From assembly GCF_019263745.1 (NCBI RefSeq), contig NZ_CP077107.1, forward strand, positions 1,240,001 through 1,304,000: a DNA stretch of 64,000 nucleotides, written 5' to 3'. Positions 1,775 through 20,393 of the stretch are shown one piece after another (the first letter of the stretch is position 1; the number at the start of each line of letters is the position of its first letter). Made by a program: the position numbers and the translations under genes. The notes below the pieces were generated by a model, which made no database searches, was not told the DNA's origin, and saw nothing but the letters and a program-made list of their open reading frames with translations. The stretch is from Methanospirillum hungatei (GTDB lineage Archaea > Halobacteriota > Methanomicrobia > Methanomicrobiales > Methanospirillaceae).

Positions 1775-2469
1775 TATCGGTAGTTATTCCGTCATTTAAT
1801 GAAGGTGAACGAATAGAACGATGCCTTGAGTCATTATTAAAACAGGATCTGCCACGAAATGAGTATGAAATTATTGTGGTTGATGGTGGCTCAAAAGACA
1901 ACACCCGTGAGATTGCAGAAAAATATGCAGATATCGTCTTTATTCAGACGAGTCCGAAGGTGGGCGGTGCCAGAAATGACGGGGCAGTTCGCGCCAGAGG
2001 GGAGATTATTGCTACAACCGATGCAGATACATTTCTTCCACCGGACTGGCTTGTCAGAATAAAGAAGGGATTTACGAATCCAAATGTGGTTATGGTGTAT
2101 GGTCCGGTCTGGCCTATCGAGTCAACTCTGAAAAACAGACTGTATTTGTTCATGGCAAATACTTTTGCACATCTGGGATATCTCACAGGAACAGTTCTTT
2201 TTACCCTTGGATGTAATAGTGCTTTCCGGGCTGATGAGTTTAAAAAGGCTGGCATGTACCGGGTATCTGATGCAGGTGATGATCTTGAGATTGCTCACCG
2301 GATGCGAAGGATTGGGAAGGTAAAATTTGACAGGAAACTCTTTGTTGGATTTTCAATGCGAAGGTATGATCAATTTGGTGCATTCCGTTCTATTTATGAA
2401 TGGTTTTATATTGTCTTCCATGGAGGCGATGCGGAAAAATACCAGTATACCAAAAAGGAATACCGGTAA
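1771..2469 (+). CDS. Glycosyltransferase family 2
   Basis: A 232-residue GT-A-type enzyme. Residues 1-20 'ISVVIPSFNEGERIERCLES' are the family 2 opening; 'IIVVDGGSKDNT' binds UDP; 'ATTDADT' holds the DxD metal/nucleotide motif. The later 'GDDLEIAHRMRRIGKV' matches the ED/catalytic-base region. A hydrophobic stretch near residues 125-150 may touch the membrane. It overlaps the GT4 gene by 4 nt and is the last gene of the three-gene unit; about 85 nt of non-coding sequence follow. Likely role: transfer of a sugar to a polyprenyl- or archaeol-linked acceptor. The specific sugar is not inferable. Confidence 0.88.
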   Translation: MISVVIPSFNEGERIERCLESLLKQDLPRNEYEIIVVDGGSKDNTREIAEKYADIVFIQTSPKVGGARNDGAVRARGEIIATTDADTFLPPDWLVRIKKGFTNPNVVMVYGPVWPIESTLKNRLYLFMANTFAHLGYLTGTVLFTLGCNSAFRADEFKKAGMYRVSDAGDDLEIAHRMRRIGKVKFDRKLFVGFSMRRYDQFGAFRSIYEWFYIVFHGGDAEKYQYTKKEYR

Positions 2470-2497
2470 TCAATCATCCGAGAAGTAATAAACCAGA

Positions 2498-2516
2498 GTA
2501 TACAACAGGTATACAA
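2498..2516 (+). repeat. 8-bp direct repeat GTATACAA, 11-bp period
   Basis: GTATACAA occurs at 2498-2505 and again at 2509-2516, separated by CAG. The 11-bp period places both copies on one helix face, and each contains the palindrome GTATAC. They lie 39 bp upstream of the response-regulator start, where a repressor or activator could bind. Function is inferred from position only. Confidence 0.4.
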
Positions 2517-2554
2517 GGATGAAACCCGTAATTCTGGCAACACACTGACATTAC

Positions 2555-3352
2555 ATGTTCGAATCCCAAAAAAAGAGTAAATCAGAGATACTCGTCGTTG
2601 AAGATGATGAGATCATTGCCACTCTTATCGAACGATTTCTGATCCAGTATAACTATACAGTTTGTGCCAAGGTTGCATCCGGTGAAGATGCCTTATATAA
2701 AACAGCTGAGCATCTTCCCGACCTTGTTCTTATGGATATTAACCTGGCCGGTAAGATAGACGGGATAACCGCAACGAAATTTATAGCCTCAATTTTTCAT
2801 ACTCCGGTCATTTTCCTTTCAGGCCAGGATGATGATACGACACTTGAACGGGCAGCACTTGCAGAACCAGCAAGTTTTATCATAAAACCATTTACTGCGA
2901 AAGATCTCTATTCAAACATAGAAATTGCTCTTCACAGGGAGAGAATATTTAAAAGATCCAAGGATTATCAGGAAGATAAAATTAAGCGATTGGCACGAGC
3001 AGCATTATCTGACCTGGATGCCTATTTCATTCTTGATATCCGGGGCAGGATAATTTTTATCAATCCTTATGGAGAGTATCTCCTGAATGTTCAGCGCAAT
3101 GACATTATATTAAAACCAATAGGGAATTTTCTGACATTTTATGATACCAGGCAAAAAATTGTCTTCTCTGACACATTCCTGGATGTTATAAGAGAAAGTC
3201 TGGTTCTCGGTATAAGACAACATATTGCTGTGAAAATGAAAGATGAAACCTACCGGCATGTCATCATCCAGTCAACTCACATCAGGAATGCGAGCAAAGA
3301 GTCAATTGGGATGATTGTCCGGATGCATATAAAGACAAAGAGTGAGTTATGA
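2555..3352 (+). CDS. Response regulator with REC and PAS domains
   Basis: A 265-residue cytoplasmic signalling protein. Residues 10-130 form a receiver domain: 'ILVVEDDE' (acidic pocket), 'DLVLMDINLAGKIDG' with the phospho-accepting Asp, 'VIFLSGQDD' (switch residue region) and 'FIIKPF' (conserved Lys). After a short helical linker (about 130-150) comes a PAS-like sensor, 'YFILDIRGRIIFINPYGEYLL' onward. There is no histidine kinase or DNA-binding domain, so output is probably protein-protein, as is common in Methanomicrobiales REC-PAS proteins. The gene stands alone between the glycosyltransferase unit and a tRNA. I see no strong Shine-Dalgarno before the ATG, so it may be leaderless. Confidence 0.85.
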   Translation: MFESQKKSKSEILVVEDDEIIATLIERFLIQYNYTVCAKVASGEDALYKTAEHLPDLVLMDINLAGKIDGITATKFIASIFHTPVIFLSGQDDDTTLERAALAEPASFIIKPFTAKDLYSNIEIALHRERIFKRSKDYQEDKIKRLARAALSDLDAYFILDIRGRIIFINPYGEYLLNVQRNDIILKPIGNFLTFYDTRQKIVFSDTFLDVIRESLVLGIRQHIAVKMKDETYRHVIIQSTHIRNASKESIGMIVRMHIKTKSEL

Positions 3353-3396
3353 ATACCTTCATATGCGATAATGAATAACATATACAGGCACGGTTA

Positions 3397-3468
3397 GTCC
3401 CGGTAGGGTAGTGGATATCCTAGAAGCCTGCGGAGCTTTTGACCTGGGTTCAAGTCCCAGCCGGGACG
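3397..3468 (+). tRNA. tRNA-Arg (anticodon GCG)
   Basis: A cloverleaf folds from 3397 to 3468. The 7-bp acceptor stem is GTCCCGG (3397-3403) with CCGGGAC (3461-3467), and G73 is the discriminator. The anticodon stem GAAGC/GCTTT encloses the loop CTGCGGA, with anticodon GCG at 3430-3432 reading CGC codons. The T arm is CTGGG-TTCAAGT-CCCAG. The D arm contains AGTGGATA and has one weak pair. There is no intron and no encoded CCA, as usual in archaea. Confidence 0.92.
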
Positions 3469-3554
3469 TCTTTTTGTTATTCTTTCAAAATCTTTGCCGG
3501 ATAATTTTATAATTTTTTTTGCTATCTGTTTAGTAAATGCTCTCGAATAGTCAT

Positions 3555-3767
3555 TCTCATTCCTTTTTCAATCCTCTCTGCAAATGAGAAACACTCTCTG
3601 ATATTCATGAACAAAAGAGATAGGATATTCTCTGATTGTGACAAGTTCGACTCTCCTATATCATGAATCTGGGCATTCGTACCTTGGGGAGGATTCTTTG
3701 GATAGTAGACGCTTCCTCAGGATTGCTCTTCCAATACGAGAAACCCCTGATCCACTAGAATATAAGA
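3555..3767 (-). pseudogene. Remnant copy of the C-terminal part of the Schlafen/AlbA-type ATP-binding gene
   Basis: This stretch aligns along its length with 6130-6395 inside the intact gene at 5905-7830, in the same orientation. Shared blocks include 'attcctttttcaatcctct', 'gtgacaag(c/t)tcgactctcct', 'gaggattctt(c/t)ggata' and 'cgagaaa(c/t)cc'. The 21-bp unit present three times in the intact gene occurs once here (3634-3654). Reading frames are broken and there is no start, so it is a decayed duplicate. No promoter or product is expected. Confidence 0.75.
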
Positions 3768-3799
3768 TAGACTGATTAGATACAAAATATAATACCAGT

Positions 3800-4522
3800 A
3801 TGCTTTCAGGAGTGGTTCGTCTATTTCAGTTATTGGTTGTGTTAACCATAATTACCTATTCCGCTTGTGCTTCTTCATCATCAGGGTTGATAACAATAAA
3901 TCTGTCTTTACCGACAAACCTGTCCGTTTTTTCTGATATTATTGATATTAACATATTCCAGACAGTAGGTCCATCGCATGAACTAGATTCGAATACTATT
4001 GAGCAAGCGGTACCTGAACAATCAAACGAGGTAAAAATTCCAGATTACTCAATACAGTGGTCAAGTAATATGAACAATATTACTCATGTATACAAAGCTG
4101 TAATTGCTCCTGGAATTACCTGGACTCAAGCAAGAGATGCCGCAATTACAGAAGGTGGACATTTAGTTACAATCACCAGTAAAGAGGAAAATGAGTTGGT
4201 ATTCTCATACATTAAGAACGCATCCTTTTGGTCTCCTTGTAGAGGTAATATTTTTGGACCATGGTTAGGTGGATACCAACCTTCAGGATCAGATAATTCA
4301 AGTGCTGGGTGGGCCTGGGTGACAGGGGAAAAATGGGAGTATACTAATTGGTTTGCTGAAGAGCCTAATGATTATAGAGGAGAAGAAGATAGGTTATTTT
4401 TCTACATGAAAAATTGTACTCCATCTGCAACATGGGGTGATCATCGAAACGATGGAGATGGGAATACTGCTTATATTATTGAATGGGAGAACCCCAATAA
4501 TTCACCCCATTTGGTTCTTTAG
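3800..4522 (+). CDS. Secreted C-type lectin-like domain (CTLD) protein
   Basis: A 240-residue protein with an N-terminal hydrophobic signal segment (about residues 5-24, ending near 'YSACASS') and a C-terminal CTLD (about 95-232). Recognisable CTLD elements are 'WTQARDAAITEGGHLVTITS' (helix 1 and strand), 'WLGGYQPSGS', 'WAWVTGEKWEYTNWFAEEPND' with the EPN triad at 188-190 that in mannose-type lectins coordinates Ca2+ and sugar, 'WGD' at 212-214 (in place of WND), and 'AYIIEWE'. Residues 30-90 are a low-complexity, Asn/Ser-rich spacer. The protein is likely extracellular or surface-bound and may bind glycans. The gene is AT-rich compared with the core genes and sits among remnants, which suggests recent acquisition. 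It ends with TAG. Confidence 0.82.
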   Translation: MLSGVVRLFQLLVVLTIITYSACASSSSGLITINLSLPTNLSVFSDIIDINIFQTVGPSHELDSNTIEQAVPEQSNEVKIPDYSIQWSSNMNNITHVYKAVIAPGITWTQARDAAITEGGHLVTITSKEENELVFSYIKNASFWSPCRGNIFGPWLGGYQPSGSDNSSAGWAWVTGEKWEYTNWFAEEPNDYRGEEDRLFFYMKNCTPSATWGDHRNDGDGNTAYIIEWENPNNSPHLVL

Positions 4523-4874
4523 TCAAATTTCCTTATTTAAATCGATGTTATACAGCCAATGGGAGTCCTTATCCTTTGTATTTCTCACAGTACTCTTGAG
4601 TTGGTAAAATTAGATGAAATTCAACCGTTTGAACGAAATAATTAAATATCATATATATTTTATTTTGTTCATTTTAGTTATGGTCAGACTCCTTTGACTG
4701 CAAAAGAGATCGATAATTGTAATCCAGATCCGAACGTTTTTTTCAGAGAACCATAAAATAAAAGAGGAATGTGGTACCTGCAGATGGATTGAGGACTGCA
4801 ACAGAGTAAGGGTATTTGCCCCTGGGACGACCTGAATAGGTGATAGAATTCTTTACATTGTTAGAAAAGAATTT
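4523..4874. other. Gene-free stretch
   Basis: AT-rich sequence between the lectin-like gene and the methyltransferase remnant. I find no credible ORF, tRNA or strong hairpin on either strand. Confidence 0.5.
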
Positions 4875-5195
4875 TTAACCCCTCAACATCCCGGCCTTGA
4901 TCACCATAAATGAAGGTATTCTGAAATGATGCATAATATCCGGATCCTGTTCTCCTCCTTTCATATCAGGGATTGGTTCATGAAGAGAGTGTACACTGAA
5001 GCCGTTTTTCTCAAGATACTAAAAATAATACGATAGTGGGCGATGATAATGCATTGTTTTCCCCCAAAAAAATAACGATTCAGATTTCACACTCAGATAA
5101 TCAGTTACTCTCTTATATGTTCGGGCGCCGGTTTCATCCATGACCCAATCACTCGAAAAAAAGCAGGGATGTGTGATTCATAAAGATCTGTATTG
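4875..5195 (-). pseudogene. C-terminal remnant of a class I SAM-dependent methyltransferase
   Basis: On the minus strand one frame, ending at TAA 4875-4877, reads 'HPCFFSSDWVMDETGA', 'KTMHYHRPLSYYF', amber codon (5019-5021), 'YLEKNGFSVHSLHEPIPD', 'DPDIMHHFRIPSFMVIKAG'. This is the typical C-terminus of archaeal class I methyltransferases: HRPLSYY, LEKNGF, EP.P and a final FMVIKA strand. The N-terminal SAM-binding half (GxGxG) is missing, and there is a TGA upstream of the HPCFF block. The gene is therefore truncated and interrupted and is not expected to be active. Confidence 0.78.
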
Positions 5196-5271
5196 CAACA
5201 TTGGAAGGTAGATAGGTCACAATCCAATGTCAAACGTTTTATTGTTAGACTTGACAAAAAAGATGGATTTA

Positions 5272-5418
5272 TCACTGTTCGATGGATTGTGCCAGCGTCT
5301 TTGCATCTTTAATTACCTACATTCCAGCGGGATTACAGATTGGATGCTTGATATACTGCATGAATACCTCGACATCCTCACCTTCAAGAATGAGTCCGAG
5401 ATCAATTGGTTCTGCCAT
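5272..5418 (-). pseudogene. Small conserved-type protein interrupted by an in-frame TAG
   Basis: An ATG at 5418 is preceded by a good Shine-Dalgarno (GAGGG on the minus strand). It encodes 33 codons beginning 'MAEPIDLGLILEGEDVEVF', then TAG (5317-5319), then 14 more in-frame codons including 'VIKDAKTLAQS' before TGA. The continuity of composition across the TAG suggests one roughly 48-residue protein with a nonsense mutation (AAG to TAG is one base). Its function is unknown to me. It lies just upstream of the methyltransferase remnant on the same strand, so both may belong to one decayed unit. Confidence 0.5.
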
Positions 5419-5904
5419 TATGTTCCCTCGTGTAAATTAACAAAATATTTGGAACTATAAAGGATTATTCTGTTCTGTAGAAAGAGAAGTTTCAAATCAT
5501 ACCTCTCCACCCATTCCCCTTCTATGAAAGCACCTCCATCTGAAGTTCGCCTCGTTAACACATATCTCAAGTTAGCAATAATTATCAGAAATAAGGCCAT
5601 CAAAGGACTTTCCTTCAGATATACACCTTAAAAGATATTTCATCGAGAATATGTTTAGATATACTTGATCATCCTTCAATCCAGAACACCTCTTTCTCCA
5701 CATATAGCCGGATATATGGATCAGCTCTTGAAAAATAATTAAGCGCTGATTATCGGTTTAATCCTTGTAAAAGATGAAGAATCTTACTTCAATTCGGGCA
5801 ATTGGATACGTGGATGGATACCCGATCCCTGACAGAAAAGGGAAAAGACAGGCATGGGCCATATAGCATGCAATCTTGAAGAATATCAATTAATAAAACA
5901 GATA
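5419..5904. other. Gene-free stretch
   Basis: No convincing ORF. A 61-codon minus-strand frame here lacks recognisable composition and a ribosome-binding site. The stretch carries the upstream region of the small interrupted ORF and the 3' region of the ATP-binding gene. Confidence 0.4.
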
Positions 5905-7830
5905 TCATAATGATTTACGAATATACGCCTGATCCGGGTGAGTTTTCTTATCAGGATACCGGGGAATCAGGATACCCTTCTGTACCATGGTCCGAATGTA
6001 ATTATTCCGAATCACTCTTTCACTCCGGTGCAGCATCAAAGCAATATCACCAAGGGTCTGAAATTGTTCTGAGCAGATATCAAGAATGAATGATTCCATC
6101 TCTTCCTTCGGAATATTTTTCCGGCCCCTCATTCCTTTTTCAATCCTCTTTGTCAGAGGGACTGCTCCGGTGTTCATGAGCGAAGGAGACAGGGTATTCT
6201 CTGAATGTGACAAGCTCGCTTCTGAATATGACAAGCTGCCACCTGAATGTGACAAGCTCGACTCTCCTGTATCATCAGTGAGATGGCTCTGGGTAACAGT
6301 ACTCTGAGGAGGATTCTTCGGATAATAGACTCTTCCTCGTGACTCTCCTTCCGGAACGAGAAATCCCAGATCCACCAGAATCTTCAGATCTTTAGTCAGA
6401 TCAGAAGGATGGATTCCTGACATCTCCCGGATCCTCTTATGTGTCACTTCACCATCAGAATAGGCCAATGCAAGAGCGATCTTCTGTTCATGTGAGAGTG
6501 CATGAAAGGATACTCCATAGGTAGAATCAAGATATGCCAGAATATTCTCCGGGAAGAGGTGTATCATGCAGAGAGTCAGGGTCGTCGTATCCGGTCCGAA
6601 TGACTCGACATAATGAGGATTGCGATACTGTTCCTGAGCCCAGTTGGAAAAGATGCTGGGAATGCCTGATCCTGCCTGGTCACCAAATCCTACCATCCGG
6701 AACATGACCTGCAATGCACGGTTCCGACAGTCACTCGTCCCCCCATGAGCTGCCAGTTCGAGGGGGATACGCATTGTCCCAGGATTTCTGAATATGATCT
6801 GATCTACCCGCTTTTCTATAAGAATTGAAACCGAACTTGAATAGTCTGCATGAATGAGAGCATTTACTAATGCTTCCCGGATGGCTGCCTCTGCCGGGGT
6901 ATCTTCCACCCGTTGCCCATCATGAAGATGAAACGGACTTTTCAGATCGCGTTTCAATCTCCGGTATGTCAGTTGGAAGAAATCAAACAGGTTGCCAGAC
7001 CAGCTTCCATCAGGAACCAACCGGTCAATCCACCGGACAGAACCACTTCCTTCAGGAATCTCACGATAATCGAGGAAGAACTCCGGGAGAAATTCGGTGA
7101 TCGTCTCCCACCTGCCAAACATCAACAGTCCGGCAACGGTAAGCCCTTCTTCTTCGGTCTCACGGTCTTTCCGGTATCCCTGGAGATGCGTAAGGAAATC
7201 ATAATCAGAGTCGTTGTTCCAGGTGTGTGACAGATTAGTTATCCTGAACCGGTTCCGATAGGCATGAAAGCTTTCAAGATGGAGATCATCAATGCCGGTG
7301 TGAGGAATTATCCGCTTATCCTGTCCATCACTGACCTGTTCAGCGAGCATTCGCTTTACCACCGATTCATCGCACCGGTAATCTCCCTGATAATTTCTGC
7401 GATATGTTCCGGTGATGGGATTATTGTTGAGGTAAATCGGTTTTTCCTTGCGGGTGGCACGAGGAACCCAGATGACAAGAATGGTCTTGTCAGCTACCTG
7501 GACTTCAGAGATATTTGAATCCTGTAAGAGGTTCTTACTTACTTTCTGCTTGTTATTCAGCGTATTGGTGAGGTCTTCCCTGATCTTTTGAACCTGGTGG
7601 AGTCCATATACAGAGAAATGATTCTTTGGTTTCTCTTCGATTCCAAGAAGAATCACACCCCCGTTAGTATTTGCCATAGCACTGTAGGATTCAAAGAATG
7701 ATTGCGGGAGTTCTCCATTGCCATCTCTCCCACCTGCCTTCTTTGCTTCCCGGTTCAGATCTTCATACAACTGATCGGTCTGGATCAGATCAACGAGTGC
7801 ATCAAGAACTATGGTTTCAGTGGCGGGCAT
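5905..7830 (-). CDS. Schlafen/AlbA_2-domain putative ATP-binding transcriptional regulator-like protein
   Basis: A 641-residue protein. The start is set at 7830 (MPATETIVLDALVDLIQ) because GGAGG lies 9 nt upstream; an in-frame ATG at 7926 lacks one. Residues about 20-150 form an AlbA_2/Schlafen-like domain ('NREAKKAGGRDGNGELPQSF', 'MANTNGGVILLGIEEKP'). Residues about 290-420 form a GHKL-like ATP-binding module ('AIREALVNALIHADYSSS', 'IIFRNPGTMRIP', 'GFGDQAGSGIPSIFSNW'). Winged-helix-like segments follow ('VTHKRIREMSGIHPSDLTKDL'), then a Ser-rich linker with three 7-residue repeats and a final helix-turn-helix-like part. Family members (COG2865) occur widely in archaea and in defence islands; the molecular activity is not established. 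A partial decayed copy lies at 3555-3767. Confidence 0.85.
   Translation of the reverse strand: MPATETIVLDALVDLIQTDQLYEDLNREAKKAGGRDGNGELPQSFFESYSAMANTNGGVILLGIEEKPKNHFSVYGLHQVQKIREDLTNTLNNKQKVSKNLLQDSNISEVQVADKTILVIWVPRATRKEKPIYLNNNPITGTYRRNYQGDYRCDESVVKRMLAEQVSDGQDKRIIPHTGIDDLHLESFHAYRNRFRITNLSHTWNNDSDYDFLTHLQGYRKDRETEEEGLTVAGLLMFGRWETITEFLPEFFLDYREIPEGSGSVRWIDRLVPDGSWSGNLFDFFQLTYRRLKRDLKSPFHLHDGQRVEDTPAEAAIREALVNALIHADYSSSVSILIEKRVDQIIFRNPGTMRIPLELAAHGGTSDCRNRALQVMFRMVGFGDQAGSGIPSIFSNWAQEQYRNPHYVESFGPDTTTLTLCMIHLFPENILAYLDSTYGVSFHALSHEQKIALALAYSDGEVTHKRIREMSGIHPSDLTKDLKILVDLGFLVPEGESRGRVYYPKNPPQSTVTQSHLTDDTGESSLSHSGGSLSYSEASLSHSENTLSPSLMNTGAVPLTKRIEKGMRGRKNIPKEEMESFILDICSEQFQTLGDIALMLHRSERVIRNNYIRTMVQKGILIPRYPDKKTHPDQAYIRKSL
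6203..6265 (-). repeat. Three tandem 21-bp repeats inside the ATP-binding gene
   Basis: Units at 6203-6223, 6224-6244 and 6245-6265 (gaatgtgacaagctcgcttct type) encode SLSHSGG, SLSYSEA and SLSHSEN in the linker. The pseudogene copy at 3634-3654 has one unit, so the array expanded or contracted by slippage. Confidence 0.8.
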
Positions 7831-8793: not shown

Positions 8794-10425
8794 ATGTCCC
8801 AAGCCTCATTTTCGAATAATTCCACTCTCGATGAAACCACGTTAGGAAACTGGCTCTGGGATGCAGCATGTAAAATTCGCGGAGAGATAGATGCAGCTAA
8901 ATACCGTGATTATATTCTTCCGCTTATCTTTCTTAAACGCCTCTCCGATGTTTTTGAAGACGAACTAACCCGCCTCATCTACGAGTATGGAGAGAGTGAG
9001 ATCGTTGAAGCGCTCATTCTGGAAGATCATAATCTTGTCAGGTTTTATCTTCCTGTTGATGCTCGCTGGGAAACAATCACAAAAAAGAAGAAAGATGTCG
9101 GCCAGTATCTTACCGATATCGTTCGAAAATTAGCTCGTGAGAATCCGAAACTGAGTGGTGCAATTGATATTGTAGATTTCAATGCAACCACATCAGGGGA
9201 ACGGATCATCAGCGACGATAGTCTTATCGTTCTGGTAGGGGTTCTCTCAAAATACCGGCTTGGGATCAATGATGTACAGGCTGACATCATCGGACGGGCA
9301 TATGAGTATCTGCTTCGTAAATTTGCCGAAGGTTCTGGTTCATCGGCAGGTGAGTTCTTTACTCCGCCTGAAGTTGCCCGCCTGATGGGATGTATTCTTG
9401 ACCCAGAACCGGGTGAGACCGTATATGATCCCTGCTGCGGGTCGGGTGGTCTGCTTATCAAGTGTGCTCTTCGGTTCCGTGATAAGTATTCAGAGCAATC
9501 GTCAACTGCCCCTCTCAAATATTACGGACAGGAGTGGCTCGCTCTTACATCTGCAATGGCAAAGATGAATGTCTTCCTCCATAATATGGAGGCAGAGATT
9601 GCCATCGGTGATTCGATGAATAATCCGAAGTTTCTCTCCAGGAAAGGGAAACTTCAGCATTTTGATATGGTCACGTCAAACCCGATGTGGAATCAGAAGT
9701 TTGATCAGAGAGTCTATGAGAATGATGAATTCTCCCGGTATTTCTCGGGTTATCCGAACAATTCTTCAGCAGACTGGGGATGGGTTCAGCATATGGCGGC
9801 TTATCTCACTGATTCGGGGAGAATGGCAGTGGTTCTTGATACCGGTGCGGTTTCACGGGGAAGTGGGAGCGGGGGCTCAAACCGGGAACGGGATATCAGA
9901 AAAGCATATGTCGAGCAGGATTTGATTGAATCAGTTATTCTTCTCCCTGAAAATCTCTTCTTCAATACAACTGCACCAGGAATCATCCTGATTGTGAATA
10001 AACAGAAGAGACACCCCCGTGAGATTCTTCTGATCAACGGGTCCGGTCAGTTTGAGAAGGGAAGACCGAAAAATTTCCTCACCGCTGATGCAATCAAAAC
10101 GATGGGGGAGATATATCTACAGTGGAAAGCAGTCGATGAGATATCCATCATCATTACCACTTCAGAAGCAGCGAAGAGTGATTATAACCTCTCTCCTTCC
10201 CGTTATATTGCAAAAGCAGCCGTAGATGATACGATTCCCTTGGAGGATGCCGTATTCTTATTGAAAGAGGCAGAAGAAGAACGGGCTCTTGCAGATCAGA
10301 GGTTATGGGAGGTTTTGGCAGAACTTGGATTAGGGGATGAACCGGTCTCCCCTCTCCTCAGTTCATCACCTCCGATGGCAGTTGCCGAGAAAAAGCAGCC
10401 GTATGGAAAAGGGAAAAAATCATAA
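8794..10425 (+). CDS. Type I restriction-modification DNA methyltransferase subunit (HsdM)
   Basis: A 543-residue adenine-N6 methyltransferase. Residues 10-150 are the HsdM N-terminal helical domain ('LWDAACKIRGEIDAAKYRDY', 'ILPLIFLKRLSDVFEDE'). Residues 180-480 are the N6-MTase fold: 'GEFFTPPEVARLM', motif I 'DPCCGSGG' at 212-219, and motif IV 'SNPMW' at 295-299. Motif IV deviates from the usual NPPF/Y by having Met and Trp, a variant form. The C-terminal 40 residues are helical and then low-complexity. In normal type I systems HsdM works with HsdS and HsdR; neither gene is present in this window. Instead a SIR2-like gene follows after 27 nt on the same strand, making an unusual pair. Start ATG 8794 follows an AT-rich leader with no strong Shine-Dalgarno. 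Confidence 0.9.
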   Translation: MSQASFSNNSTLDETTLGNWLWDAACKIRGEIDAAKYRDYILPLIFLKRLSDVFEDELTRLIYEYGESEIVEALILEDHNLVRFYLPVDARWETITKKKKDVGQYLTDIVRKLARENPKLSGAIDIVDFNATTSGERIISDDSLIVLVGVLSKYRLGINDVQADIIGRAYEYLLRKFAEGSGSSAGEFFTPPEVARLMGCILDPEPGETVYDPCCGSGGLLIKCALRFRDKYSEQSSTAPLKYYGQEWLALTSAMAKMNVFLHNMEAEIAIGDSMNNPKFLSRKGKLQHFDMVTSNPMWNQKFDQRVYENDEFSRYFSGYPNNSSADWGWVQHMAAYLTDSGRMAVVLDTGAVSRGSGSGGSNRERDIRKAYVEQDLIESVILLPENLFFNTTAPGIILIVNKQKRHPREILLINGSGQFEKGRPKNFLTADAIKTMGEIYLQWKAVDEISIIITTSEAAKSDYNLSPSRYIAKAAVDDTIPLEDAVFLLKEAEEERALADQRLWEVLAELGLGDEPVSPLLSSSPPMAVAEKKQPYGKGKKS

Positions 10426-10452
10426 TTCCTATTTATTACAAAGAGAGAAAGT

Positions 10453-12252
10453 ATGCCTGAATCCCCAATTGCACAAAGTAATTCACTTGTAAAACTTGCT
10501 TTCTCAATATACTCATCCCCTGGAGCATATGCTCTGCTTCTTGGCTCTGGTGTATCAAGAAGTGCTGAAATTCTGACGGGTTGGGAGGTAATGCTGGACC
10601 TGATTCAAAGAGTGGGAAAAATCAATGGAGAAAAAAAACTTGATAATCCGGTCCAATGGTATCAGGAGAAATTCGGAAAAGAGCCATCGTACGATACTCT
10701 ACTGGATGAACTAACCTCTTCCCAAGCAGGGCGAAGGGATCTATTGGCTAATTATTTTGAACCACGGGAGGCTGATATAGATGAAGGAAGAAAAATACCG
10801 CAGGCAGCTCATCGGGCAATTGCCTCATTAGTCAAAACGGGATATATTAAGATAATAATCACCACAAATTTTGATCGGCTTATTGAGACTGCTGTCTATG
10901 ATATCGGATTTCATCCGTATGTGATATTTCATGAAAGTGGGATACGCAGTTGCCCCCCTCCTGCACACATTCAGCATTCTTGTATCATCTTCAAAATTCA
11001 TGGGGATTATTTGGATACTCAACTCCGAAATACTCCTGAAGAATTAGCAAGGTATCCAGATTTGATAAATCAATATCTGGATCGAATTTTTGATGAATTT
11101 GGTTTAATTACCTGTGGATGGTCTGGAGAATATGATTGTGCGATAATCGAACGGTTGAAAGCAAGAAGGAGTGATTCGCCATATCCAATTTATGTTTCCT
11201 CTCGAGGTAAAAAGAAACCAGCGATTCAGGAGTTACTCAAAATACCAAATACCATACCAGTAGAGATTTCAGATGCAGATGATTTTTTTGAAAAATTGTC
11301 CGAAAATGTTACTTTCCTAATGGAACATAACAAAGAGCCGCTGACTGATGAATTGTTGGTAATCCGAGTAAGAAAATATCTCAGTGACACAAAAAATCAA
11401 ATAAAATTGTGGGAATTATTGAACACAGAAGTAAAATCTGTTCAGGAGAAAAACAATAACGAAATATTAAGGGCAATATCAAAGACTTCATTTACCGTCA
11501 AAGATTTGATGGCTCATTTCGAAACTAATATCAAAAATCTTGAAATTATTTGTATGAATGTTGCCTTTTTTGGAGATCAAAGTTACTCACCGTTTTTTAG
11601 ATCCATTATTGAACAATTAATGACTGTTCAGGAGAAAGGATGGTATAACAAGTTAGTTTCCTTACAATATTATCCAGCACTATTAATTGCTTATATTTCA
11701 GGAATCATTCTGCTTAAAGATGATAAATTTTCACAGTTATCAGAATTATTACTTAACCCAATTTGTTATGATTATAATGAACGAAAACCATCAATTTCGA
11801 TTATTAATACCCGAACAGTTTTTAGAGATAGTGCCGAAAAACAGATAGATTATCCAAATGCAGAAAATTTGTATGCTCCAGTCAGCGAATATCTTTATCA
11901 TCGATTAAAAGATCCTTTATCCACATTTTTTTCAAATGAAAATCACTATTCAGAGACTTTTGATTTGTTTGAATACTTATTATCATTGATCTATATTGAT
12001 CAGATCTACCCTGATCTATCCAAGGGTCGAATCTGGTCACCAATTGGCAGATATAATTGGAAACGTGAGTCATACTATAATGAAAAAACCCCTTTCTTTG
12101 AACAAAAGGTTGAACAGTGGTTGCATCAAGGAGAAAATCTCTCTCTTTTTAAAGAAGGGTTTTTCCAAGCGTCTCCAGAAAGATTGAACCAATGCCATCA
12201 AGGTTTATTACTATTATTAAAATCATCAAAAGAACAGTGGATTCGAATTTAG
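10453..12252 (+). CDS. SIR2-like domain protein, putative NADase effector
   Basis: A 599-residue protein. Residues about 20-290 form a SIR2-like fold: 'YALLLGSGVSRSA' (26-38, NAD phosphate loop), 'TTNFDRLIET' (137-146, with N139 and D141) and 'KIHGD' (181-185, with H183 as the expected catalytic His). This is the pattern of defence SIR2 proteins that cleave NAD+ on phage infection; NADase activity here is inferred from family knowledge. Residues about 290-599 are a long helical region of unknown fold, probably the sensor or oligomerisation part. The gene lies 27 nt after hsdM with a Shine-Dalgarno-like AGAGAGAA before the ATG, so the two are likely co-transcribed. It is clearly AT-richer than the neighbouring core genes. 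It ends with TAG. Confidence 0.85.
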   Translation: MPESPIAQSNSLVKLAFSIYSSPGAYALLLGSGVSRSAEILTGWEVMLDLIQRVGKINGEKKLDNPVQWYQEKFGKEPSYDTLLDELTSSQAGRRDLLANYFEPREADIDEGRKIPQAAHRAIASLVKTGYIKIIITTNFDRLIETAVYDIGFHPYVIFHESGIRSCPPPAHIQHSCIIFKIHGDYLDTQLRNTPEELARYPDLINQYLDRIFDEFGLITCGWSGEYDCAIIERLKARRSDSPYPIYVSSRGKKKPAIQELLKIPNTIPVEISDADDFFEKLSENVTFLMEHNKEPLTDELLVIRVRKYLSDTKNQIKLWELLNTEVKSVQEKNNNEILRAISKTSFTVKDLMAHFETNIKNLEIICMNVAFFGDQSYSPFFRSIIEQLMTVQEKGWYNKLVSLQYYPALLIAYISGIILLKDDKFSQLSELLLNPICYDYNERKPSISIINTRTVFRDSAEKQIDYPNAENLYAPVSEYLYHRLKDPLSTFFSNENHYSETFDLFEYLLSLIYIDQIYPDLSKGRIWSPIGRYNWKRESYYNEKTPFFEQKVEQWLHQGENLSLFKEGFFQASPERLNQCHQGLLLLLKSSKEQWIRI

Positions 12253-12453: not shown

Positions 12454-14393
12454 TCAAGATCTCATATATTTTCTTGCGAATATTGTGATAAAAGAAGCTA
12501 TGAAAAAAGTTCCAACAATAGCTTCAAAACTGGCTAGATATTTCCCTAAACCTGGGTTAATTATCATTCCTCCATATCCTGGAGTTATTGCATTAGTAAG
12601 GCTGAAATAAACAAAATCACTTAGGTCTGTTGCGTTAAAGACTGGGTGCTGAGTCATGTCTAATACAAGATATAGAATAGTAAATAATGCAACAAATAAT
12701 AGCCAGTAGATGAATGTTAACCCCGGTCTAGTACCATAAAAGAAAAATTTTTGGAGTGGTAATTCGATGATTCGGAAATACCAGGGTTTTTGTTTCCGCC
12801 TAGCTATCATTTCTTTAAAGTAAAATTCATCAGCTTCATGATTATTACCCAAGTTTTCATAGTGGTTCTTAATATTTCTAAAAAAGTTTTCTTCCGAGAT
12901 ATAATTTTCAAAGCTAATATTATTTATACCATAAATTTCTCCAGAAACCTCTAAGTTATTCAAATTGATAATCCCGCCAATTCTCATGGGTTCAATAATT
13001 AGGTTTCCAGACACTTTTGTAGATATCATTTCAAGATGGGAGATGTCGCTTGAAGTTGAAAGATCTAAATGTAAATCATGTTCAAAGATTGAATTATTTA
13101 TTAGTAATTTTGCTTTTTTACCTATTAATTGCGGATTTATAATCGATGAATGTCGATAGTTTGTCCTAGATAAATCGAAATCATTCATAATTTTTGCATT
13201 ATGAAGGATATCAGCATTACTTGAAAATGTCACTCCAGAAAAATACGTTTCTCCTGAAAAAATCGTTCCTGAAAATATAATTTCTGAAAAAGTCATATTA
13301 GTATCATGAAAAATATCAAAGATTGCTTCTGAAAAATTGGTAATATTCGAGAATTCAGCATTAGTAAAATTGGTACTCGAATAAAATATCGCTTTTGAGA
13401 AATCTGAACTATCTTTGAATATTGTCCTACTAAAGTCAGTTATTCCGGAGAATATTGCCTTTGAAAAGTCAACTCCCATGGGAAATATAATATCTGAAAA
13501 AAAGGTCCAACCAGAGAGATTGACTCCGTTAAAAAATACATAATCAGAAAATGTAGCTTTTAATCGATTTTCTTTATCTTGAGTGTTCTGTTCTGAAAAA
13601 TAGATATCACCTGAAAAAAAAGAGTTGGAAAATATTATCATACCCGAAAAAACTGTTGATATAAAATTAGTGTGCCCTGAGAACGTAACACCACCAAAAG
13701 ATGCCCCATTAGGAAAAGTAGCCTTTGAAAAATTTATTTTCCCGAAAAAAACATCATTAAATAATGTACAATAGGGAAAATTTACCTCATTAAAATTTGT
13801 CTCTCCAGAAAATTCTGCACCCCTAAAATTTGGTCCCTCAGAAAAAGTTACTCCAAAAAAATCGGTAATACCAGGGAAAGTAGATTCAGAAAAGTTAACT
13901 TTACTTAAAAAATCAGACTTTGAAAAAGAAGAGTTTTCAGATTTTGCGAAAGATGCCCTTGAAAAATTCGTATCACCAATAAAGGTAACCCCTTCAAAAA
14001 GGGCTGCTCCAAAAAAAATTACATTCGAAAAATCGGGAGAACCGAGTTTTGCGCCTGAAAAATCTACCCAATTATAAAACACTGAATTCGAAAAGTCGGT
14101 TAAACCAATAAAGGAATTTGAAAAATCCACTCCTCCTAAAAACTTCGTATTTTTAAAATTAGGAGGTTTTTAAAAATACCATTATAATTGAGATTTCCAA
14201 ATATTCCCCCCTCAAAATTAAAGTCATCTTTTTTGATTTCCTTTTGAAAAAATTCTTGTTTTAAATTATCAAGTGTCTTCCACTCCTTACTACCTCGATA
14301 CTCTGGAAAATTAATGTGTAATATACAATAGTCCGAACCAGGGTAATTTATTTCAGAACACTCTTTATGATTTCCATATCTATATTGGCACAT
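12454..14393 (-). pseudogene. Pentapeptide-repeat protein with C-terminal ion-channel domain, split by a frameshift
   Basis: Two frames make one gene. The first (start 14393) encodes a Cys/His N-terminus 'MCQYRYGNHKECSEINYPG', 'SDYCILHINFPEYRGSKEW' and 'FNFEGG', the standard head of archaeal pentapeptide-repeat channels, and stops at 14136. The second (12454 to about 14155) carries more than 40 pentapeptides of the F-x-x-x/A-x-F type ('VDFSNSFIGLTDFSNS'), then about 12600-12850 a pair of membrane helices around 'TPGYGG', a K+-channel-like selectivity filter. One missing base in the run TTTTTAAAAA (about 14170) explains the break: adding an A gives 'NGIFKKPPNFKNTKFLGG'. Either the gene is dead, or the run is a sequencing error, or two polypeptides are made. 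It would act in the cytoplasmic membrane. It is AT-rich and convergent with the SIR2 gene. Confidence 0.78.
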
Positions 14394-15892: not shown

Positions 15893-17029
15893 TTACTTTT
15901 TCCCAAAATCGGATATTTCTTTTTGGCTGATGGTTTTCATCATTTCATCTTCAACTTTTAAACGGGCTTCAATTGTTGCTTCATACACAGCCCAATTTTC
16001 GATGTATTTTTCTTTTAGTACATCAACAACGGTCTTGGTTCGTTCACCACGACAATTTATTCTGAATGATTCTTTATCTTCATCGGCAAAAAGATCATAT
16101 CGTAAACCGTATGCAACGACCTCCTCTAATTTTCTTTTCACCATATCCTTTTTTACTGAGGGCGATGTTACGAGAGAGATCGATTTCATCATCTCATTCA
16201 TCATCAAATTTTTGGTTATTCGCTTTGGATCTTCGATGCTTTCCCGTTTAGCATACTGTTTTGGATAACACTGCCCGAGCACTGCCTGTTCAATGATAAT
16301 ATATGGATGGCTTGTGATGCAATAAGGGATGTCAAGACGTGTTTGTAATGACTTTTTTTCAGTTCCCATTTGAAGAAGTTCATGCAGAACAGGATCAGCA
16401 TGAGAATATTTCTCTGATATCTGAGCAATCTTAGAGAATGGATGGAATATCCATATAACAAATCCATCTCTATTCAACATAGAGGACTTGTTTTTCTGAA
16501 TAGAATCATCTTTAGATTGATGAATTTTTTCTGAATCTTTATCAGCGATACATAAGACATATTCACAGTCATCCCAAGAGATTGTATCATCTATCCTTTC
16601 AGAGAGATACTCCTTATTCTTTTGTACTAATTGAATCGATTGTTCAATTTCAGTGCTAACATTTTTCACACTGCTGATGGATGATTTACATTCGATAAAT
16701 ATTGCCTTTTTGCTAGTATCATTGAATAGTAAAAGATCAAAACTCTTATTCCCTTCCTGAAGACCCCCAAACTCAATGAGTGGTTCTGCACAAACAAAGT
16801 GGAATCCTGTTTTGATGGCTAGGTCTGTTCCGCAAAAAGCACGGCAACATGCCTGAACCATCTCCAAGTGTTCATATTCACTGGATAATTCCCGGTGAAC
16901 TCGACCGAGAAAATTTGGTTTGTTGATCAGTTTCCATTTTTCAAGGCGAACTTTATATTCTTCTTTTTGACTTGTCGATAGTCGATGAAAAAACGAATCC
17001 GTTTTATCCATCACCCCAGGAATATCCAC
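15893..17029 (-). CDS. Putative PD-(D/E)XK-fold nuclease, first recognised part of a two-gene unit
   Basis: A 378-residue protein I cannot assign to a named family. Residues 85-120 hold a PD-(D/E)XK-like core: 'IEFGGLQEGNKSFDLLLFND' with D98, then 'KAIFIECKSS' with E113-C-K115, preceded by a helix with a conserved-looking Glu ('YEHLEMVQACCRAF'). This matches the D-x(n)-E-x-K metal-binding pattern of restriction-like nucleases. The rest is mostly helical; residues 200-350 have no motif I know. It lies 7 nt after the stop of the upstream gene (17037-18110), so the pair is one operon. The two genes are AT-rich, have no recognised relatives nearby, and sit between defence-type genes and a decayed element. 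A role in defence is inference. Confidence 0.65.
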   Translation of the reverse strand: MDIPGVMDKTDSFFHRLSTSQKEEYKVRLEKWKLINKPNFLGRVHRELSSEYEHLEMVQACCRAFCGTDLAIKTGFHFVCAEPLIEFGGLQEGNKSFDLLLFNDTSKKAIFIECKSSISSVKNVSTEIEQSIQLVQKNKEYLSERIDDTISWDDCEYVLCIADKDSEKIHQSKDDSIQKNKSSMLNRDGFVIWIFHPFSKIAQISEKYSHADPVLHELLQMGTEKKSLQTRLDIPYCITSHPYIIIEQAVLGQCYPKQYAKRESIEDPKRITKNLMMNEMMKSISLVTSPSVKKDMVKRKLEEVVAYGLRYDLFADEDKESFRINCRGERTKTVVDVLKEKYIENWAVYEATIEARLKVEDEMMKTISQKEISDFGKK

Positions 17030-17036
17030 GAATTCC

Positions 17037-18110
17037 TCACACGGCTACTGCCATTGAATCAACAGATTCTATTATAAGTTCAAAAAATCGCATTGAAGAG
17101 CCAATACTTGTTTTTTCAACTGGATAGATACTGATACCTTCTTCTCTTGCTTCAATATCAATGAGAGAACCTGACAAGTTGTCAATTAATCTTGCTTCCA
17201 GATATTCCTGATTCTGATTCTCGTTTCTCCTTAAGAGTGTAAATTCCCATTCTTCTGTATGTATTTCTTTTATAATTTGATCAATTACATCAGAATTAAC
17301 GGGGCGGGAAAGGTTAAGGGACCATGGTTTTTGAATATTGTAATTAAAATATGGTTTATTTCCTTGATGAAGAGTGTATGAAGAACTCGTAATAGCATCT
17401 CGAAGAGGTCCAATCCGTTCAATAATATGATCCAAAATACCAAAAATGCCTGATACTGCTCCCTCTTTTACAGTAATGATGCCTTTATTATCTAATCTAA
17501 AAGACCCAACATTTGGAATAGTAAAATCAAGAATCCTTGGGAGAATACCATAATAATACTCCAACTCTTCAAGTGTGTCCTTTCCATCAACTCCTCGGTA
17601 TTGTATTCCCCGGGTAACTGAAGGTCGATAATATGATTTTGTTTTAGTGGTAGGTCCACGTTTTGCTGAGAAATAGGATATAATCAGGTTCTGATAATTA
17701 GATGCCAGATCATCTTTTATTTCTTTCATGACCGTTGGAGCTATCCAAAGATTCGAGAGTGAGCCGGAGAGATAGATATATTCAAATAAAAGATGGGGAA
17801 TTTCATCGGTTTTTTTTGCATCAGTAATGAATAGCCCGATTTGATTTGAAACGTCAAAGAAAACTGAAAAGGGAACAATTCTCTGGTCTTTGTGCTCTTT
17901 TGTTATTTCAAAATAGGAACCACATTCTTTGAGTATTGAAAACCCAAACTCGATAATTGAATCTTTAAAATTCTGAAGAGTCAACCCATCAGCTACTGTT
18001 GCGATCACCTGCAAATTCCCGGATTTATGGGGAATTACACTCAGGTCATCAAATGATTTTTTGAACTCTTCAAGATCGGTAGCATGAACAGAATTAAAGG
18101 AGAATTGCAT
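17037..18110 (-). CDS. Protein of unknown function, partner of the PD-(D/E)XK-like gene
   Basis: A 357-residue soluble protein with no signal peptide, no membrane segment and no motif I recognise. The first 130 residues alternate strands and helices ('VHATDLEEFKKSFDDLSVIP', 'ITDAKKTDEIPHLLFEYIYL'). The middle contains 'YYRPSVTRGIQYRG' and 'ELEYYYGILPRILD'. The C-terminal 100 residues are strand-rich and acidic. There is no transposase or recombinase signature. It is the first gene of a two-gene operon with the nuclease-like gene (7-nt spacing), so it may be a sensor, specificity or inhibitory partner. Start 18110 is chosen because it is the only ATG near the frame's open end. Confidence 0.6.
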   Translation of the reverse strand: MQFSFNSVHATDLEEFKKSFDDLSVIPHKSGNLQVIATVADGLTLQNFKDSIIEFGFSILKECGSYFEITKEHKDQRIVPFSVFFDVSNQIGLFITDAKKTDEIPHLLFEYIYLSGSLSNLWIAPTVMKEIKDDLASNYQNLIISYFSAKRGPTTKTKSYYRPSVTRGIQYRGVDGKDTLEELEYYYGILPRILDFTIPNVGSFRLDNKGIITVKEGAVSGIFGILDHIIERIGPLRDAITSSSYTLHQGNKPYFNYNIQKPWSLNLSRPVNSDVIDQIIKEIHTEEWEFTLLRRNENQNQEYLEARLIDNLSGSLIDIEAREEGISIYPVEKTSIGSSMRFFELIIESVDSMAVAV

Positions 18111-18431
18111 AGCCCCCTCTGCGTGTATATACCTTATGACAATAAAAGTACCTATCCCTTTCGTTTTGATCAGGGATGGACGATGATATCATGGATGAGG
18201 ACAGAGGAGAAATATCAAAAATACCGAAATGTGGAATTGATTTGTAGATTATCAAATTTAACCATTTTTAAGAAAGTGGGAAAGAGAGAGGTGATTTATG
18301 GGTATCTCTTACAAGGGATGTGAACAAATGTCAGCCACTGAACCATACAGAAGAACATTCCGATGAAACCATATGGAAAGGATAATCCGCGTTTATGCGT
18401 TCACGGAATTGCCGAGACTCAATCCGCGATT
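18111..18431. other. Gene-free stretch upstream of the nuclease unit
   Basis: No credible ORF. It should contain the promoter of the minus-strand two-gene unit. The codon pattern of the small plus-strand frames is not gene-like. Confidence 0.4.
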
Positions 18432-19929: not shown

Positions 19930-20160
19930 TCAGATCAGCGTGAGAACCGATAATAGATCTTCAATATCAATTCCGGCTTGTTTTAAAATCGCCTTGAGAG
20001 TTCCCCTATCAAGTTCATCGTGATCAGGAACGACAATGGTTCGTTGTTCATTGGTATTTTTTAGAACAATATGACTTCCCTTCTGGTGATCGATTGAGTA
20101 CCCCAGACGAATCAAAGCGTTAATTACTTTTCGTGCAGGGAGAAGTGGGAATTTTGCCAT
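19930..20160 (-). CDS. hicA: HicA-family toxin (mRNA interferase)
   Basis: A 76-residue protein starting 'MAKFPLLPARKVINALIRLG', with the dsRBD-like HicA core: 'YSIDHQKGSHIVLKN' (the catalytic His lies in GSHIVL) and 'TIVVPDHDELDRGTLKAILK'. HicA toxins cleave mRNA at ribosomes. The start at 20160 is chosen because it overlaps the stop of hicB (TAATG); an upstream in-frame start at 20193 would lie within hicB and encodes no conserved sequence. All key residues are present, so the toxin looks intact, unlike the genes around it. Confidence 0.88.
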   Translation of the reverse strand: MAKFPLLPARKVINALIRLGYSIDHQKGSHIVLKNTNEQRTIVVPDHDELDRGTLKAILKQAGIDIEDLLSVLTLI

Positions 20161-20393
20161 TACAGTACATCTACTAGGACTTCTCTGACACACACCTGAC
20201 TTGCCCGAACGGGGATCGCATGATTATGAACTGATTCAAGGTATGCTTCTATTGCTTCCTTAGAATTTTCAGTAGCCTCATCGATAGTCTTCCCCTGAGT
20301 GATACATCCTGGCAGACCAGGGACCGTCACGACAAACCATCCATCTTCTCCCGGCTCAATCACCACTTTAAATTTTTGAAACATCGTACCCAC
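20160..20393 (-). CDS. hicB: HicB-family antitoxin
   Basis: A 77-residue protein with the partial RNase H-like HicB fold: 'FKVVIEPGEDGWFVVTVPGL', 'PGCITQGKTIDEATENSKEA' and 'IEAYLES'. It is the short form without an added DNA-binding domain. HicB binds and blocks HicA. The order antitoxin-toxin and the TAATG coupling with hicA fit a functional module. The start may be ATG 20393 or 20384 (fourth codon). An AT-rich region upstream (about 20400-20430) probably holds the promoter. Confidence 0.88.
   Translation of the reverse strand: MGTMFQKFKVVIEPGEDGWFVVTVPGLPGCITQGKTIDEATENSKEAIEAYLESVHNHAIPVRASQVCVREVLVDVL

Follow-up and report, generated by a model that had tools for sequence, protein, structure and literature searches.

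A near-obligate archaeal gene pair encoding a predicted DNA-binding protein and a nuclease-fold partner, and its possible role in defence

We describe a pair of archaeal genes, A and B, that occur together as a real, near-obligate unit, far beyond what chance would give. Gene A encodes a protein whose predicted fold resembles RdgC and CENP-L/Iml3, and gene B encodes a predicted PD-(D/E)XK nuclease. The pair was studied in the window, by which we mean the whole 64,000-nucleotide stretch of Methanospirillum hungatei DNA that was analysed (Table 1). As far as we searched, the pair is found only in archaea, where it is sporadic and mobile. Our best explanation, which in our judgement has an even chance of being right, is that the pair is an uncharacterised virus-exclusion or defence module, with A sensing DNA and B acting as a nuclease anchored to the replication clamp PCNA.

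A prior reading of the DNA from its letters alone (the sequence-only reading) had reported two intact open reading frames of 357 and 378 residues, 7 nt apart and AT-rich. The coordinates are correct, and both frames are intact and lie on the minus strand. Seven nucleotides separate the stop codon of A from the start of B, and the pair's GC content (35-37%) is lower than that of most of the window (about 43%). The GTG start of B is supported by an AGGA ribosome-binding-like sequence that overlaps the stop codon of A, and translation of B may be coupled to that of A.

Table 1. Features of the gene pair and of associated genes (window positions unless a locus is named).
Feature	Coordinates	Strand	Basis or remark
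Gene A, 357 aa, ATG start, first of pair	18110..17037	minus	ORF; predicted DNA-binding/sensor protein
Gene B, 378 aa, GTG start, second of pair	17029..15893	minus	ORF; PD-(D/E)XK nuclease-fold partner
A/T-rich TATA-like stretch and AGGGGG upstream of the ATG, probably promoter and ribosome-binding site of A	18111..18175	minus	by eye
Stop codon of A overlapping AGGA, ribosome-binding-like site of B	17030..17039	minus	sequence
A residues 22-243, RdgC/CENP-L/Iml3-like region	17382..18047	minus	structural matches
A residues 243-357, TBP/KA1-like C-terminal domain	17040..17384	minus	structural matches
B residues 56-219, predicted PD-(D/E)XK core	16373..16864	minus	model and structural matches
B predicted catalytic residues D98 ... 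E113-C-K115	16685..16738	minus	intact in 26/35 homologues
B residues 240-340, predicted winged-helix domain	16010..16312	minus	structural matches
B PIP-box-like motif QKEISDF, residues 369-375	15905..15925	minus	motif scan
Pentapeptide-repeat protein with C-terminal two-TM ion-channel-like domain (PF13576 + PF07885)	12454..14130	minus	family match
One-TM protein genes	L074:10181-10723, L076:10091-10621, L077:7523-8119, L111:2017-2631		conserved, 176-204 aa

The claim that A belongs to no known family also held up, and neither A nor B reaches a Pfam, NCBIfam or PADLOC cut-off. For A there is no Pfam match at E <= 1 and nothing usable in Pfam, NCBIfam, PADLOC or the PDB sequences. The RdgC sequence family is matched neither by A (in Pfam) nor by any of 34 homologues, and no HEC family matches A. 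For B there are only weak nuclease matches, all below the cut-offs: HSDR_N_2 (E 0.021) and HEC-02B (E 0.0023), over residues 90-135. Of 33 B members, 12 weakly resemble HEC-02B, a PADLOC candidate defence protein, in the neighbourhood of the ExK motif (best E 5e-4); what HEC-02B and B have in common is only about 45 residues of the nuclease core. The NucS sequence family gives no Pfam or NCBIfam match to B. Among known defence systems, as represented by the HMMs of PADLOC-DB 2.0.0, only weak partial matches to A or B were found. In the open-access literature we found no described system that joins defence, PCNA and a nuclease, or RexA/RdgC and a nuclease.

The two genes have nearly the same distribution. 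In a class-level scan, A and B were confined to the identical 9 of 199 genomes. In a phylum-level scan, A was found in 18 of 393 genomes, all 18 had a full-length B, and no full-length B occurred without A. (The other signals for B in the 393 genomes came from two genomes with broken remnants and from three weak matches that covered the nuclease core only.) B directly follows A in every complete locus that we read, and the spacing is -4 to +9 nt in 28 of 35; for the larger spacings (76-175 nt), uncertain start codons are part of the reason, and the overlap in L084 comes from an overlong ORF call. In maximum-likelihood trees of A and of B, the main groups are common to both. The one apparent orphan A is in a genome of the Thermoplasmata group (L087/G538), which has no B. 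Conversely, a genome without A has a B remnant that is split into two pieces about 1.4 kb apart (G299:C19:7785-9930), which suggests recent decay or insertion. Another Thermoplasmata genome has two copies of the pair (L084:209-2469 and L037:2898-5166), with the nuclease residues intact in one copy and dead in the other.

The hosts belong to Methanomicrobiales, Methanothrix, Thermoplasmata and Halobacteria. Within these groups the pair is sporadic, and the other nine genomes sampled from the window's genus all lack it. Besides chromosomes, relatives are carried by haloarchaeal plasmids. We found no bacterial relatives: there were none on 72,556 plasmids, the scan of genome contigs gave only archaeal loci, and the E. 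coli genomes were empty. Three scans of the IMG/VR viral contigs gave no relative.

We then considered the predicted structure of B (structural matches of the A and B models are given as VIA Z scores). The AlphaFold2 model of B, from an alignment of 30 sequences, has a pLDDT of 88. As the sequence-only reading had anticipated, the model contains a restriction-like core of the alpha-beta-beta-beta-alpha-beta type: helix 19-64, strands 76-81, 99-103 and 108-115, helix 121-137, and strand 156-162. The proposed catalytic residues read FD98LLLFN...IFIE113CK115, with D98 placed on the second strand and E113-K115 on the third. The best matches to the core are Upx (9wuf, Z 9.7, 126 residues aligned, 2.9 A), XisH (2okf, Z 9.0) and NucS (2vld, Z 8.2). 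On the strength of the model, we predict that B is a PD-(D/E)XK DNA nuclease. Beyond the core, the model has a winged helix similar to those of JetB (8as8, Z 8.4), MukE (Z 7.7-8.0), DpnI (its winged helix, Z 7.3) and Orc1/Cdc6 (Z about 7). Residues 331-373 form a long helix, followed by a flexible C-terminus, and the pLDDT falls below 50 at residues 374-378.

This tail probably docks on PCNA, whose binding motif, the PIP-box, is usually found in a flexible terminus. The strict pattern Qxx[LIMV]xx[FYW] occurs within the last 30 amino acids of 20 of 31 B proteins. In a background of 282 other proteins encoded at these loci, it occurs in 7, one of which is itself a fragment of B. Kinship among the B sequences inflates the statistic. 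The hydrophobic position 372 is kept in 84% of sequences; only 24 columns of B, this one included, are conserved in at least 75% of sequences. The general definition of the PIP motif is QXXhXXaa (PMC4929162). In B, the second aromatic residue is mostly absent, and some members lack the motif altogether. The PIP consensus in Haloferax, QxxLxxFx, also has no second aromatic residue (PMC7776575). FEN1 from the same genome as the window ends in QKTLESWF, and NucS, a known archaeal RecB-type nuclease with a C-terminal PIP, provides a precedent for the tail of B (PMC4929162). Because the second aromatic residue is mostly absent and kinship inflates the motif statistic, we treat the binding of B to PCNA as a prediction. 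The combination of a predicted winged helix with a conserved, PCNA-binding-like C-terminal motif QxxLxx[FY] is new here.

Protein A, whose AlphaFold model has a pLDDT of 87, is predicted to consist of an RdgC-, CENP-L- and Iml3-like region followed by a TBP/KA1-like domain, and this likeness is also new here. Residues 22-243 match RdgC (2owl, Z 8.3, 186 aligned, 4.5 A; 2owy, Z 8.2, 193 aligned), CENP-L (7pkn_L, Z 7.5, 188 aligned) and Iml3 (4kr1, Z 6.6). A caveat is that the scores are middling, here as well as for the C-terminal domain, and that those to RdgC (Z about 8, rmsd 4.5-4.8 A at 8-11% identity) are not far from what common arrangements can produce. This region also contains the best-conserved part of A (R151, R162, R167, Y171, D175, G188 and R205). 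Residues 243-357 match KA1 domains (Z 9.4-10.3), RnlA (Z 8.1, 86 aligned), CENP-N (Z 7.3) and TBP (Z 7.1). A profile comparison gave no sequence signal for internal repeats among A's three putative modules. Independently of these models, the literature groups RdgC, Iml3/CENP-L and TBP together (PMC4080450, PMC5095916). It also assigns RdgC, the phage-exclusion protein RexA of lambda, Iml3 and Chl4 to a single DNA-binding fold (PMC11077077), and TBP-like lobes, including those of RnlA, are considered to be modules that bind double-stranded nucleic acids (PMC7221094). We infer that A binds DNA. Lambda RexA/RexB has no sequence match to the pair, and RexA was absent from the fold-search listing for A.

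The D/E/K triad of B is intact in 26 of 35 sequences and altered in the other nine, and seven of the nine loci with a dead nuclease have a membrane-protein gene beside A, as against none of the 26 intact loci (two gene families were scored). This association is new here, but it was noticed after the fact and comes from two clades only. In L074, L076, L077 and the virus Harhisp1 (L111), the neighbour is a one-TM protein, whose gene lies about 90-100 nt upstream of A and was seen only in a clade with a dead nuclease. In L019, L080 and L112, it is a divergent member of the pentapeptide-repeat proteins whose C-terminus has two TM segments. At the locus L079 the nuclease is intact and the TM gene is missing, whereas its relatives in the same clade have a dead nuclease and a TM gene. 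In the window, where the nuclease of B is intact, a pentapeptide-repeat gene with the same architecture as in L019, L080 and L112 lies 1.8 kb downstream of B. Its product is 27% identical over 157 amino acids to the C-terminal part of the L080 protein. The source genome as a whole has just two Pentapeptide_3 genes, of which this is one. Possibly, the pentapeptide-TM protein is an accessory membrane effector of the pair.

One copy of the pair is in a virus. Harhisp1 is a temperate pleolipovirus of Haloarcula hispanica with an annotated integrase and attP, and its A and B genes overlap by 4 nt. The gene order is the one-TM protein, A, B, and then an Orc1-type rep gene (L111:2017-7582), and a pentapeptide protein with a predicted TM segment is encoded nearby. 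The viral B falls in the dead-nuclease group. Together, these genes of Harhisp1 are a possible superinfection-exclusion cassette in a haloarchaeal virus.

Known defence genes adjoin several copies of the pair. In Halovenus rubra (L048), a complete CBASS operon (cyclase, E1-E2-JAB and TIR-SAVED, at 2081-6974) ends about 0.7 kb upstream of the pair. The Methanoculleus copy adjoins a convergent type I restriction-modification (RM) operon with HsdM, HsdS and HsdR; L045 has an adjacent gene for a Lamassu LmuB-like SMC protein, which is also present in L070; L079 adjoins a DrmMI/type IIG gene; and a Halorubrum plasmid copy adjoins DUF499/DUF1156 and restriction endonuclease genes. Across the loci, 135 neighbour proteins matched 252 PADLOC families, while 125 control proteins from the same genomes matched 35 (the control matches were mostly Cas genes, and some of the neighbour matches were generic helicases). 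Clear defence genes lie beside roughly 6-9 of about 28 loci, versus 1 of 20 control regions. This moderate enrichment is supportive but not decisive. The sequence-only reading had proposed to check whether the two genes co-occur next to defence genes; they do co-occur in the genome scans, and several times beside such genes. Of the two outcomes that it named as refuting, a predicted structure with no restriction-like core and a lack of co-occurrence elsewhere, neither was seen. It had also placed the pair between defence-type genes and a decayed element, which is roughly right: the window has an HsdM-type methyltransferase and, 27 nt further on, a SIR2 protein of the PADLOC candidate family PDC-S65 (E 5e-176), together at 8794-12252. 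These two genes may form a methyltransferase-SIR2 defence unit; neither an HsdS nor an HsdR gene was seen alongside them. A lone HicA-like toxin ORF (19930-20193, E 4e-20) lies about 1.8 kb from the pair, within the 18-22 kb stretch that had been called the decayed element.

How might the pair work? We infer DNA sensing, recruitment to PCNA, cleavage and a defence function. With a fold of the RdgC/RexA/Iml3 type, A would bind DNA as a sensor or as a clamp-like protein, sensing or encircling abnormal DNA. B would dock on PCNA via its C-terminal PIP-box and on DNA via its winged helix. When A met an abnormal DNA state, such as a replication or recombination intermediate of a virus or plasmid, it would license B, and the licensed, PCNA-tethered B would cut replicating foreign DNA (or the DNA of the infected cell). 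In lineages where the active site of B is dead, A and B may instead signal to the linked membrane protein as the effector, as RexA does to RexB. A more ambitious version, which we put forward as a doubtful extension, is an immune system that reads replication: an RdgC/RexA-fold sensor would drive a PCNA-tethered nuclease to cut at the fork, membrane effectors would have replaced the nuclease at least twice, temperate haloarchaeal viruses would carry the sensor-adaptor core for superinfection exclusion, and A would be an archaeal relative of the eukaryotic kinetochore CENP-L/CENP-N fold.

Other explanations need to be weighed against this defence module. The pair could instead serve the replication, partition or maintenance of mobile DNA. 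A would then bind the DNA of the element while B docked on PCNA, and the two would act jointly in regulating replication, resolving junctions or repairing the element. An RdgC/CENP-L/N-like fold would suit such a role for A, PIP motifs are typically found in replication and repair factors (PMC7776575, PMC4929162), and the active site of B is dispensable in several lineages. Also, the viral copy is directly upstream of the rep gene, a Cdc6/Cdc18 gene is near a Halomicrobium plasmid copy, and the Pfam tally of neighbours includes two Cdc6-type genes. But the pair has no constant association with replication genes, and many copies are chromosomal and lie beside RM, CBASS or Lamassu-like genes, so we consider a maintenance role unlikely. 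A chromosomal DNA-repair pair linked to PCNA, that is, a sporadically retained analogue of NucS/EndoMS working with an RdgC-like recombination factor, would fit the nuclease fold and C-terminal PIP that NucS has (PMC4929162) as well as the activity of RdgC in recombination (PMC11077077). The patchy distribution, the carriage by plasmids and a virus, and the catalytic decay make it very unlikely.

The loss of catalytic residues also bears on the readings in which B simply cuts or poisons. If the pair were a restriction-like system that distinguishes modified DNA, or an RM accessory, then B would cut unmodified or modified DNA and A would be a specificity or DNA-clamp subunit. The type I operon in Methanoculleus, the HsdM gene near the pair in the window and the type IIG gene beside L079 are consistent with this, as are the match to DpnI's winged helix and the weak similarity to HSDR_N_2. 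However, a methyltransferase is missing beside the pair in most loci and is not part of the unit, and both genes are kept in lineages with a dead nuclease; overall, this reading seems decidedly unlikely. The sequence-only reading had suggested an undescribed defence or toxin-immunity pair. Its first half remains the best reading (of a predicted function), while its second half is disfavoured because of the dead-nuclease lineages. If the two genes were a toxin-antitoxin or toxin-immunity pair of the classical kind, B would be the toxic nuclease and A its neutraliser. This would account for a two-gene, often overlapping operon with near-obligate linkage and A before B, and RnlA, which shares the TBP-like domain fold of A, is a toxin. 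Yet both A and B are kept in the nine of 35 cases where B has lost catalytic residues, both proteins are large and multi-domain, and B has a tail that resembles a PCNA-docking motif. We consider this the least probable of the explanations.

If the defence module is real, it would be the first archaeal module to join an RdgC/RexA-type DNA sensor to a clamp-tethered nuclease, in a domain whose defences are poorly charted relative to those of bacteria. The natural replacement of effectors would make the split between sensor and effector directly testable. Since haloarchaeal versions occur in culturable hosts and in an isolated virus, the pair can be tested in laboratory strains. A CENP-L/RdgC-like fold in archaea also bears on the origin of the folds of the inner kinetochore.

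Among known systems, lambda Rex (RexA-RexB) is similar in that RexA has the RdgC/Iml3-type DNA-binding fold (PMC11077077) that the model of A also resembles, a likeness that runs through the published grouping of folds. Both Rex and A-B are carried by temperate viruses, and some A-B loci include a membrane-protein gene. But no sequence similarity was found, the usual partner of A is a PD-(D/E)XK nuclease with a PIP-like tail, and the hosts of A-B are archaea. RdgC itself is a toroidal, recombination-associated DNA-binding protein, and with CENP-L and Iml3 it aligns structurally to residues 22-243 of A. Unlike RdgC, A has no Pfam RdgC match, has an extra C-terminal TBP/KA1-like domain and a near-obligate nuclease partner, and is sporadic. 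RnlA/LsoA (RNase LS, a toxin-antitoxin phage defence) has TBP-like domains like the C-terminal domain of A (Z about 8), but no HEPN RNase domain was detected in A or B, and the partner here has a DNase fold. For B, the closest match to the nuclease core is Upx, which is listed as an anti-phage system (16% identity over the aligned residues), but the Upx chain has 1212 residues and the match is limited to the core. NucS/EndoMS resembles B in combining an archaeal RecB/PD-(D/E)XK-type nuclease domain with a C-terminal PIP-like motif. It differs in that B has a winged helix and a long helix in place of the N-terminal domain of NucS, and in that B is paired with A, mobile and patchy, whereas NucS is core.
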